Source: Candidatus Cetobacterium colombiensis (GTDB lineage: Bacteria > Fusobacteriota > Fusobacteriia > Fusobacteriales > Fusobacteriaceae). From it: a stretch of 64,000 nucleotides of DNA. Every line of letters begins with the position of its first letter. Positions within the stretch are counted from its first letter, which is position 1. The position numbers and the translations under genes were made by a program. The notes under the pieces are model-generated. The model did not search any database. It was not told the origin of the DNA and saw nothing but the letters and a program-made list of their open reading frames with translations. The DNA is taken from NCBI RefSeq assembly GCF_033962415.1, contig NZ_JAVIKH010000002.1:62001-126000 (forward strand), given 5' to 3'. Shown in pieces: positions 60,429 to 63,905 of the stretch.

Positions 60429-60457
60429 ATCCCCCTTATAACAAGGGGGATTTTTTT
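60429..60457. terminator. tpx terminator (bidirectional)
   Basis: ATCCCCCTT (60429-60437) pairs with AAGGGGGAT (60443-60451), then TTTTTTT. The DUF368 gene converges and ends just past it. Confidence 0.9.
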
Positions 60458-61199
60458 ATGAAAATAATGTTTCAGCTATTTGAAATAAAGAAACTATAAT
60501 TATTCCAACTATAAAATTTAAAGTATAACTTCTATATTTTTTCAAAAGTATATTTATTGCTTTAGCAACTAAAACAAGTCCTATTCCTGTTCCTGCTGCA
60601 AAGAACGTAAGTGGTAATATATTAAAACTTTTTATATAACTTAAAATATTATAATACTCTCCTAAAATCATTAATAATAATGATCCAGAAATACCTGGTA
60701 TAACCATAGCACCTGCTGCTACTATTCCGCAGAAAAATAGCTTTATTCCATAAGCTGCTGTAAAAGCTGTTGCTACAGTTCTTGTAACTTCATCCCCTGC
60801 TAAAAGCTTAGTTAAATATATAAAAAGTCCTGTAAATAAAACTCCTCCAAAAAAAGCTATTAAATTATCTTTTTTAAGAAACTTTTCCCCCTTTAAAATA
60901 ACTGGAATAGAAGGCAATATTAATAATAAAAAAGCTATTGTAGTTCCCTTAGGATATAAATCATACATTTTTGAAATTACTCCTGCAAAAACAACTATTC
61001 CAACTACTGCTCCTGCTCCTATTTGAGATAAAAATTTAGCATATTCTATTTTCTTCTCCATTGGAGCTGTAAAAAAATTCCCCACTGCTTCTGTTAACTT
61101 ATCATAAATATTTAAAACTACTGCTAATGTCCCTCCTGAAACCCCTGGTAATACATTGGCAATTCCTATTACAATCCCTTTTAAAAAATTCTTAAACAT
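60456..61199 (-). CDS. DUF368 polyprenyl-phosphate transporter (PopT family)
   Basis: This 247-residue membrane protein has about eight helices and two related motifs, GIANVLPGVSGGTLAVV at 12-28 and VIPGISGSLLLMILGEY at about 166-182, the hallmark of DUF368. Members of this family were shown to return undecaprenyl phosphate across the membrane in several bacteria. It fits with uppS in the same window. It is cotranscribed with the transposase-derived gene, whose stop codon precedes its start by eight bases. Confidence 0.88.
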   Translation of the reverse strand: MFKNFLKGIVIGIANVLPGVSGGTLAVVLNIYDKLTEAVGNFFTAPMEKKIEYAKFLSQIGAGAVVGIVVFAGVISKMYDLYPKGTTIAFLLLILPSIPVILKGEKFLKKDNLIAFFGGVLFTGLFIYLTKLLAGDEVTRTVATAFTAAYGIKLFFCGIVAAGAMVIPGISGSLLLMILGEYYNILSYIKSFNILPLTFFAAGTGIGLVLVAKAINILLKKYRSYTLNFIVGIIIVSLFQIAETLFS

Positions 61200-61207
61200 A
61201 ATCCTCC

Positions 61208-62266
61208 CTAATCTTTTATTAATTTTACTTTATCTATAAATCGTTTCTCTAAATATACTTCGACTATTTTATTAGAAAATTCACTATAGTATACATCTAC
61301 AATTTCTCCTTCTAATTCTTTTAAGAAAGGGCTATTATAAATATTATTTTTTAATCTAATTCCGCCACTGTAAACTTTTCTTTTGTATTTTGTTAAAAAA
61401 TATAAAAGTTGATAATTTTCATTTTGGCTAATTTTCTTTTCTCCATCATTATTTATAAAAAGATATTTTTTTATAAACAATGATATTTCATCAATATTTT
61501 TTGGTTTTTTTCTATTAAACTCTTTTAAAATATCTGTATCAATATATTTCAAAAAAGATACAATATTTTCATCCACTTCTTCTTGAATAAAATTTATTTT
61601 TGTTTGAAAAAAAATATTTCTTAATAAACTTTTTGAAATTCCTTGAATTTTTTCATCCAAAGATATATTTTTAGGATACGATCCTTCTATTATAATACTT
61701 TCTTTTATAAAATTAAATAATTTTTTAAACTCTCTTTTTTCTTCTTCAAAAATAAAATTTGTTATCTTATAATTCTCTTTATTATAAAAAATTGTCAAAT
61801 AAAAAATTTTATTTTTATTATTAAAAAAAGGAATGGGCACAACTTTTTGCAATATAGCGTACTCATAAAGACTTTCTTTTTTCACTGATTTTATAGAGCT
61901 CTGCTTTATATTTTCGTCTAAATTATCTATTATTCTAAAAAAAGTTGGATAACTTATTACACTATTATAAGAATTCAACGTACTTTTAGCTTTTTCATAC
62001 AATTTTGTTACTGGTAAGTTATGGTAATCTTTATATAAACTTTTCAGATAATCTAAAACATCATCATTTACTTTTTTAAAAGTGTTTTTATCTATCCTTT
62101 CTTTTTTTACAAGTCCTTTTTCTCCAGAATTTCGATATTGACTAACCCATCTTTTTAATGTTGCATAAGATATTTTTGTCTCTTTTTCTATGTCTCTTAA
62201 TTTCTTTTCTTTATTAAAAAAAGGTTCAAGTATCTTGTATTTTCTATTCTTTTCCTCTATACTCAC
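61208..62266 (-). CDS. TnsB/MuA-like transposase-derived DNA-binding protein, DDE core eroded
   Basis: This 352-residue protein begins with GTG. Its parts line up with TnsB/Mu-type transposases: a helix-turn-helix at about 22-45 (KLRDIEKETKISYATLKRWV, followed by YRNSGEKGLVKKER), a second helical DNA-binding part at about 66-115, an RNase H-like middle and a C-terminal beta barrel (KVYSGGIRLKNNIYNSPFL at about 297-315, then LEGEIVDVYYSEF at about 318-330) matching Mu-transpos_C. In the middle (135-265) the usual WQxDHT and TDNG acidic motifs are not recognisable, so it is unlikely to cut DNA. No inverted repeats, target duplications or TnsC/MuB partner flank it. It looks domesticated. It is the first gene of a unit with DUF368 and diverges from the PTS gene. 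Confidence 0.72.
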   Translation of the reverse strand: MSIEEKNRKYKILEPFFNKEKKLRDIEKETKISYATLKRWVSQYRNSGEKGLVKKERIDKNTFKKVNDDVLDYLKSLYKDYHNLPVTKLYEKAKSTLNSYNSVISYPTFFRIIDNLDENIKQSSIKSVKKESLYEYAILQKVVPIPFFNNKNKIFYLTIFYNKENYKITNFIFEEEKREFKKLFNFIKESIIIEGSYPKNISLDEKIQGISKSLLRNIFFQTKINFIQEEVDENIVSFLKYIDTDILKEFNRKKPKNIDEISLFIKKYLFINNDGEKKISQNENYQLLYFLTKYKRKVYSGGIRLKNNIYNSPFLKELEGEIVDVYYSEFSNKIVEVYLEKRFIDKVKLIKD

Positions 62267-62301
62267 AGATAATTTTACCCCCTTTTAAACTCTTTTGTTA
62301 A

Positions 62302-62310
62302 ATTATAACA
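62302..62310 (-). promoter_or_regulatory. Extended -10 promoter of the transposase-derived gene
   Basis: TGT-TATAAT on the minus strand (62310-62302) fits an extended -10 promoter about 36 bases before the start codon. No -35 box is evident. Confidence 0.5.
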
Positions 62311-62354
62311 CAAATGATGCGTAAAAAAAAGGCTCATTTATTTTGATAATTTTC

Positions 62355-62383
62355 TTGACTTTTTTTAAAATAAAATGTATTCT
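62355..62383 (+). promoter_or_regulatory. Promoter of the PTS gene
   Basis: TTGACT (62355-62360), a 17-base spacer and TATTCT (62378-62383), about 47 bases upstream of the ATG. The region back to 62310 is shared with the divergent transposase-derived gene and is a natural place for an operator. Confidence 0.6.
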
Positions 62384-62429
62384 TTTAGTGAATTAACTAT
62401 TTATATCAATCTTAATGGAGGAGTTTTTT

Positions 62430-63905
62430 ATGAAAATATTTGCTGAAGTTCAAAAAATCGGTAAAGCACTTATGACGCCGGTTGCAATTTTACCAGCAGC
62501 TGGTATATTCCTTGCAGCTGGAAATAAGTTAGGAATCCCTTTAATGGAGCAAGCAGGAGGAGTAATATTCGGTAATTTACCACTTTTATTCGCTGTTGGT
62601 GCTGCTATTGGTCTTGTTGGAGGAGATGGAATTGCTGCCCTTGCTGCAATTGTTGCGCTTTTAATTATGAATACTACTATGGGATCTCTTACTAATGCTG
62701 CTGATGGTATCGCTGCTGGAAATCCTGCTTTCGCTGAAGTTTTAGGAATTCCTACTCTTCAAACTGGAGTTTTCGGAGGATTAATCGCTGGTATTATAGC
62801 TGCTATTTGTTACAAAAAGTTCTATAAAACTGAGTTACCTGCATTCTTAGGTTTCTTTGCTGGAAAAAGATTAGTTCCTATTATGACAGCTGTTGCTGCT
62901 TTCTTAGTTGGTTTAGCTATGCCTTATATTTGGCAACCAGTTCAAGCTGGACTTGCTCAATTATCTTACTTAGCTAATGAGACAAATACAAATATATCTA
63001 CATTACTATTCGGTATTACAGAAAGAGCTTTAATCCCATTCGGATTACACCATATCTTCTATGCTCCTTTCTGGTTCCAATTTGGAGAGTATACAAACAA
63101 TGCTGGACAAATTGTTAACGGAGACCAAGCTATATGGTTTGCAATGTTAAAAGATGGAGTTCATTCATTCTCATCAGCAACTTATTCTGGTGCTGGTAAA
63201 TTTATGACTGGTAAATTCCCATTCATGATGTTTGGATTACCTGCTGCTGCTCTTGCAATGTATCACGAAGCTAAATCAGAAAACAAGAAGATGGCTGCTG
63301 GAATTTTATTCTCTGCTGCTCTTACTTCTTTCTTAACAGGAATAACTGAACCATTAGAGTTCTCATTCTTATTCGTTGCTCCAGTTTTATACGGAATTCA
63401 CTGTGTTTTTGCTGGATTATCTTTCATGTTAATGAATATGTTTGGTGTTAGAATTGGTATGACATTCTCTGGAGGAGTTATTGACTATATCATGTTCGGT
63501 GTTTTACCTGGAACTGAAGGATTTGAAACTAACTGGCCTATGGTTATAATTGTTGGTTTAGGATTTGCTGTTCTATACTACTTCGGATTCAGATTCTTCA
63601 TTAGAAAGTTTAATCTAGCAACTCCTGGTAGAGAAGATGGTCCTGAGATTGATGATCAACCAAAAGCTCAAGGAAGCGAATTAGCTGCTCTTGTTCTTGC
63701 TGCTTTAGGTGGTAAAGAAAACTTAGTTTCTGTTGATGCTTGTATCACAAGATTAAGACTTGAAGTTAAAGACACTGCTTTAGTTAATGATGCAGAGCTT
63801 AAGAGATTAGGAGCTTCTGGAGTTTTAAAAGTAGGACAAAATGGAGTTCAAGCTATATTTGGTGCTAAAGCACAATTTATTGCTAACGACATTAAAGGAT
63901 TATAA
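62430..63905 (+). CDS. ptsG: PTS EIICB component, glucose/N-acetylglucosamine family
   Basis: The frame is open from 62415, but the GGAGG ribosome binding site lies there and the ATG at 62430 is the start, giving 491 residues. The EIIC part (about 1-390) has ten or so helices with [19 protein letters not shown], the sugar-site [12 protein letters not shown] and the [15 protein letters not shown] motif of the glucose class. A linker leads to the EIIB domain with the phosphocysteine in [11 protein letters not shown] (Cys438). There is no EIIA domain, so a separate glucose-type EIIA is needed; the EIIA at 31360 is of the fructose class. Substrate could be glucose, N-acetylglucosamine or maltose; the ptsG name is a best guess. 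It is monocistronic and divergent from the transposase-derived regulator candidate. Confidence 0.85.

Follow-up and report, generated by a model that had tools for sequence, protein, structure and literature searches.

A catalytically dead Tn552/TnsB-type transposase as the probable dedicated transcription factor of divergent glucose-PTS genes in Fusobacteriota

We analysed a 64,000-nucleotide stretch of DNA from Candidatus Cetobacterium colombiensis (the window) and found that the gene at 61208-62266 encodes a transposase-like protein that has lost its catalytic triad and whose relatives nearly always adjoin divergent PTS genes. We consider it probable, at roughly 80%, that this Tn552/TnsB-type protein was domesticated by its host and, catalytically dead, serves as the dedicated transcription factor of divergent glucose-PTS genes. 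The sequence-only reading of this locus had suggested that a recruited transposase binds DNA sequence-specifically and acts in the interval 62267-62429. Synteny, a conserved site that tracks the regulator gene and the loss of the triad lend strong support to that suggestion. The regulator gene and the parts of its product are as follows.

61208-62266, minus strand: domesticated Tn552/TnsB-type transposase, proposed PTS transcription factor, 352 aa (Pfam, AlphaFold2/Foldseek, family profile)
62111-62260, minus strand: HTH1, residues 3-52 (AlphaFold2 model and relatives' alignment)
61895-62065, minus strand: HTH2, residues 68-124 (AlphaFold2 model)
61511-61864, minus strand: RNase-H-like core, residues 135-252, triad lost (AlphaFold2 model and catalytic column alignment)
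61235-61399, minus strand: Mu-type C-terminal beta barrel, residues 290-344 (Pfam and AlphaFold2 model)

The frame of 352 codons is intact, with a GTG start and GGGGG as the Shine-Dalgarno sequence. Pfam searches of the window protein revealed HTH_28 at residues 9-57 (E=1.8e-6) and Mu-transpos_C at residues 290-344 (E=1.6e-8), both exceeding the curated cut-offs, and gave no match to rve; a Tn552-type relative matched rve at 1.9e-11. The AlphaFold2 model, for which the input alignment held 28 rows of homologues, showed, from the N to the C terminus, HTH1, HTH2, the RNase-H-like core and the beta barrel (mean pLDDT 82), so that the retention of both HTHs and the Mu-type barrel, claimed before any structure was predicted, was borne out. 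The top Foldseek matches of the model were ShCAST TnsB, MuA, IstA (IS21) and Tn7 TnsB (7.8e-15 and down). A single-sequence query of solved structures with the window protein found no match and a profile was required; the family profile matched ShCAST TnsB (7svw) by sequence at 3.7e-17, with an HMM alignment over HTH1 and from core to barrel, and ShCAST TnsB is the closest solved relative. It has been reported that TnsB reads DNA via two N-terminal HTH-type domains (PMC9527255).

We then compared the gene neighbourhoods of 53 regulator loci. The genes flanking the regulator in the window are listed below.

62430-63905, plus strand: glucose-specific PTS EIICB, proposed target (TIGR02002 665 bits, cut-off 592; PF02378/PF00367)
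60456-61199, minus strand: DUF368/PopT-like polyprenyl-phosphate transporter, co-operon gene in Cetobacterium (PF04018, same strand, 8 bp gap)
60429-60451, no strand assigned: bidirectional intrinsic terminator, closing the regulator-DUF368 unit and a convergent gene (sequence)

The adjacent upstream gene was a divergent glucose/GlcNAc-type PTS gene in 51 of the 53 loci, mostly EIICB and otherwise EIIA, HPr or Enzyme I, with types assigned from Pfam directly or from resemblance to genes so typed. At the remaining two, L039 and L189, just a spurious frame of 75 or 83 codons intervenes, and beyond it in L039 lies EIIA. The adjacency that a local transcription factor would keep with its target operon is thus conserved, directly so in 51 loci. 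The partner PTS gene and the other flanks vary among lineages, the flanks being mostly not conserved, while the regulator-PTS pairing holds; inherited gene order is therefore not sufficient to explain it. The identities of regulator and EIICB also co-vary (r=0.63, pairwise identities, 43 loci), which shared ancestry alone could yield. In the window, the EIICB frame is listed from 62415 and most likely starts at ATG 62430, with GGAGGAG at 62417-62423; the glucose-specific assignment agrees with the divergent EIICB originally noted upstream. One Haliovirga EIICB is of the GlcNAc type. In two regulator-less genomes another regulator adjoins EIICB, one with a sugar-binding domain (PF04198) in G094 (L211) and one of the RpiR type in G022 (L215), an apparent case of regulator replacement.

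The placing of DUF368 in the same unit was also upheld: no terminator lies between it and the regulator before 60451-60429. DUF368 stands beside the regulator in Cetobacterium and one other genus only, and we rejected it as a general target. Of the envelope-lipid and sugar-uptake targets first proposed, the glucose PTS is general and DUF368 is lineage-specific at most.

The intergenic regions of the regulator loci have AAAAAGGCTCATTTnnTTTGAnAAA in common, followed by TTGAC. The proposed sites and promoters in the window are as follows.

62326-62359, plus strand: O1, proposed operator AAAAAGGCTCATTTATTTTGATAATTTTCTTGAC, 34 bp, ending in the PTS -35 (footprint and position weight matrix)
62355-62383, plus strand: PTS promoter TTGACT-17-TATTCT (sequence; O1 spacing 22-25 bp in 46 loci)
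62302-62330, minus strand: putative regulator promoter with extended -10 TGTTATAAT, -10 at 62302-62307 (consensus match only; relatives' consensus scan)
62216-62237, plus strand: O2, second site on the KILEPFF codons, degenerate in the window (direct repeat of O1; codon constraint in relatives)

The conserved site is clearly present at about 50 of the 53 loci. Leave-one-out matrix scores were mostly 20-43, and shuffled sequences mostly peaked below 12. No site could be recognised at L043, and those of L045 and L048 are marginal; the sites of L037 and L198 were missed or underscored because the automatic start lay too far upstream, and their actual scores are 41.7 and 43.0. A candidate site at the target promoter thus co-occurs with the regulator. 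The EIICB loci of regulator-less genomes scored at most 10.9, including G015, G027 and G036, whose EIICB orthologues are 77-78% identical to that of the window. A stringent pattern with TTGAC was found in 26 of 98 genomes, every one a carrier of the regulator, and the reversed control pattern in none; a looser pattern hit 40 genomes, chiefly at the two sites of the regulator locus, O1 and O2, and otherwise as isolated matches. In Fusobacteriota genomes, the A/T-rich stretches of the motif are of low information content. In the genome of the window, O1 was the single match. The originally proposed interval is thereby narrowed to 62326-62359, and a degenerate second copy lies inside the gene at 62216-62237. 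Extra operator-like copies were seen about 141-143 bp from O1 on the EIIA side, where genus g14 has a long leader ahead of EIIA (L039:7655, L198:6207).

Another factor, such as a global regulator, or an UP element could own O1 while the transposase-like protein has a different job, and A-tract-rich elements can serve as UP elements. We regard this as improbable: the site is absent upstream of EIICB in the regulator-less genomes, and in carriers it is almost entirely restricted to the regulator's own locus.

O2 in the window is a direct repeat of O1 (82%, 108 bp away). In several other genera it is near-perfect and coincides with the codons for a conserved peptide, K-I-I-E-P-F-L. Glu in this peptide is encoded by GAG in 32 of 40 sequences, compared with 23% elsewhere in the regulator genes; among representatives below 60% identity, GAG encodes Glu in 10 of 13 and CCT encodes Pro in 18 of 21. 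When synonymous codons were shuffled, p fell as low as 0.001 at single loci, and combining 23 loci by Fisher's method gave 1.6e-9, a value overstated since the loci are related; in the window gene the constraint gave p=0.14. A Tn552-type protein has VIEPFLK encoded with GAA and TTC codons. The peptide is thus ancestral and written with other codons in the Tn552-type gene, indicating that O2 is selected at the DNA level. In most loci having both sites, O1 and O2 are direct repeats 107-164 bp apart, and their helical phasing was best at 11.3 bp (R=0.70, random 95% limit 0.52); as the loci are related and the period was scanned, we gave this phasing no weight. An operator-like sequence on the opposite strand was also seen within the regulator gene, on KKLKDIEN-like codons (G014:C35:17420-17442; G035:C1:1229704-1229726).

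We propose that the two HTHs of the regulator would read a site in two parts, AAAAAGGCTCATTT-TTTGA-AAA, which lies shortly before the PTS -35, and that the dead core and the barrel are kept as a scaffold. The recognition-helix residues of HTH1, Y34 and T36-W40, are invariant in 28 relatives. In Cetobacterium, the -35 position of the putative regulator promoter (62325-62330) lies inside the A-tract of O1, and in many other loci it lies farther away. Binding at O1 in Cetobacterium would therefore overlap the -35 region of the regulator's own promoter and lead to autoregulation, for which, judging from sequence, O1 alone might suffice; the operon arrangement would bring DUF368 under the same control. 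In other genera, the regulator gene holds a further copy of the site within its first codons.

As to the sign of control, a repressor is slightly favoured, because the PTS promoters are near-consensus in their -35 and -10 elements, with a spacing of 17 in most loci, and because the site pairs bracket the regulator's promoter. Activation has appreciably less than even odds and is the strongest competitor: bound at O1, the regulator would contact RNA polymerase at the adjoining -35 and turn the PTS genes on. The distance from RGCTCA to TTGAC, 24 bp in 29 loci, 23 in 14, 25 in two and 22 in one (46 measured), fits this reading, since a spacing held at 22-25 bp and mostly 23-24 across promoters of differing PTS genes is as in class-II activators. 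Near-consensus promoters with 17-bp spacing, however, are rare among activator-dependent ones, and the intragenic second site reads more readily as repression or a roadblock. A further elaboration, which we think rather unlikely, is that the regulator has kept a habit of transposases and pairs O1 with O2, synapsing the two so that the DNA loops, the regulator's own promoter is silenced and PTS output is set. If this were true, a DNA-end synapsis reaction would have been re-used as a gene switch.

The signal may be contact with a PTS protein, which is the economical guess. No ligand-binding or PRD-type sensor domain is recognisable in the regulator: Pfam found no ROK-family domain and no PRD in the window protein, and the Mga HTH stayed below threshold (18.4 bits, cut-off 21.1). 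In E. coli, ptsG is under repression by Mlc, and dephosphorylated EIICB sequesters this repressor (PMC3901232). Mlc belongs to the ROK family and its fold is unrelated to that of the window protein, but the two would work alike if our proposal is right, and the functional parallel is plausible. The ptsHI genes are also under Mlc control. In a deep-branching clade of the family (L043-L048, genera g3, g6, g9 and g16), whose members have about 420 aa and a C-terminal extension, the direct partner is mostly not EIICB but HPr, Enzyme I or EIIA; the ancestral role of the family was possibly general PTS control.

To place the regulator among transposases, we aligned the catalytic columns of 46 relatives. 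The nearest intact relatives found were Tn552-type transposases of 480 aa; one from an Enterococcus plasmid, with an AAA+ gene alongside, scored 177 bits against the family profile in a match spanning almost the entire protein. The transposition genes of Tn552 are p480 and p271 (PMC3276174). The window protein resembles the 480-aa p480, which is accompanied by AAA+ p271 and a resolvase, in fold order and in the 'IEPFLK' and 'TL.RW' motifs. Whereas p480 keeps D168/D242/E278, an rve match and a neighbouring ATPase gene, the window protein has no triad, no C-terminal tail and no partner genes. Its D, D and E columns read L139, D204 and V236. The acidic motifs had been described as gone, which is right for the triad and for two of its three positions, but D204 is still Asp. 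The catalytic residues of ShTnsB are D205/D287/E321 (PMC9527255), and D205 and E321 have no counterpart in the window protein. Among the relatives, which collapse to 22 sequences at 60% identity (many of the 53 loci are closely related), the first position is Asp in 0/46, the second Asp in 23/46 and the third Glu in 7/46, and a full D-D-E triad occurs in none.

The tail beyond the barrel, present in Tn552-type proteins, is missing from the window protein; in TnsB, the C-terminal region contacts the AAA+ partner (PMC9527255). No plausible pair of terminal inverted repeats was found around the window gene, and no AAA+ ATPase (p271/TnsC/IstB) or resolvase gene was present among the neighbours examined, which are PTS, DUF368 and housekeeping-type genes. 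The earlier statement that transposon ends and partner genes are missing thus holds, and the window gene lies outside any transposon. In domain order, HTHs, RNase-H-like core and Mu-C barrel, the protein is that of the Tn552/TnsB/MuA superfamily. Taken from sequence, it is a transposase by descent and not an active one.

Relatives at E <= 0.001 were present in 46 of 98 Fusobacteriota genomes, strong in 45 and mostly single-copy. Carriers include 10 of 11 other Cetobacterium genomes, many further genera of the same family, and Haliovirga. Genomes of family f4, which we take to be Leptotrichiaceae, are without the regulator save for one weak partial match, and no full-length member was found in about 290 genomes of other phyla, a thin sampling of mostly one per genus. 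The distribution is vertical, with frames intact at 28-82% identity across the 45 genomes. Phage and plasmid homologues showed N-terminal likeness to Tn552-type transposases only, apart from two plasmid copies, a paralogue on a Cetobacterium somerae plasmid and a copy on a Haliovirga plasmid, both adjoined by PTS genes. On two plasmid loci with Tn552-type transposases, where the true element ends were not located, the operator matrix reached a maximum of 11.6. Several Cetobacterium genomes carry a second, near-identical divergent regulator-EIICB pair (G005:C3, L041; G008:C154, L042), which is plasmid-borne in C. somerae p2 (L186) and degraded in G005:C4 (L049), where the PTS gene is broken too; the pair seems to move and to degenerate as one. 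We rejected an insertion inside the regulator gene in G006 and G008 (L059/L061 and L060/L062, breaks near residue 165) as assembly breaks: in G006 the two contig ends share an overlap of about 30 identical bases, in G008 they abut with a few bases in common, and neither draft has additional sequence at the join.

That the gene is a transposase in decay, or one still mobile, beside a PTS gene by chance is very improbable: clear homology to Tn552-type transposases and a few paralogues, including the degraded copy in G005:C4, speak for it, but the frames are intact in 45 genomes, D1 is lost in all members, terminal repeats and AAA+/resolvase partners are missing, PTS adjacency holds throughout, also for the paralogues, and even the degraded one has its broken PTS gene alongside. 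Neither an alignment of all three catalytic acids nor many recent copies with terminal repeats, either of which would indicate an active transposase, was found. That the protein is an inactive subunit of some heteromeric transposase or recombinase, with its partner protein elsewhere in the genome, is likewise highly doubtful: the DNA-binding parts and the barrel are retained and functions are split between subunits in some transposition systems, yet nearly all Mu-C domains in the phylum belong to the regulator family, the exceptions in 98 genomes being one 618-aa TnsB-like protein of another kind (G072) and one unassigned fragment (G013), and the conserved site lies at PTS promoters, not at element ends.

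We found no matching description of a transposase-derived PTS regulator in the open literature, which misses most subscription papers. In eukaryotes, transposase-derived transcription factors are familiar. In bacteria, TldR, a transposon-encoded dead TnpB-like nuclease, has been domesticated as a transcription factor and linked with genes of the host (PMC13418256). TldR stems from the TnpB nuclease and uses an RNA guide, whereas the window protein derives from a DDE transposase, its HTHs are proposed to read DNA, and no guide RNA is known. If our proposal is true, a DDE-transposase family acting as a lineage-wide regulator of core sugar uptake would be a second route from mobile element to transcription factor in bacteria. 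The Fusobacteriaceae, which include gut and oral species, would also gain a candidate glucose-PTS regulator, together with an exact 34-bp site for testing.
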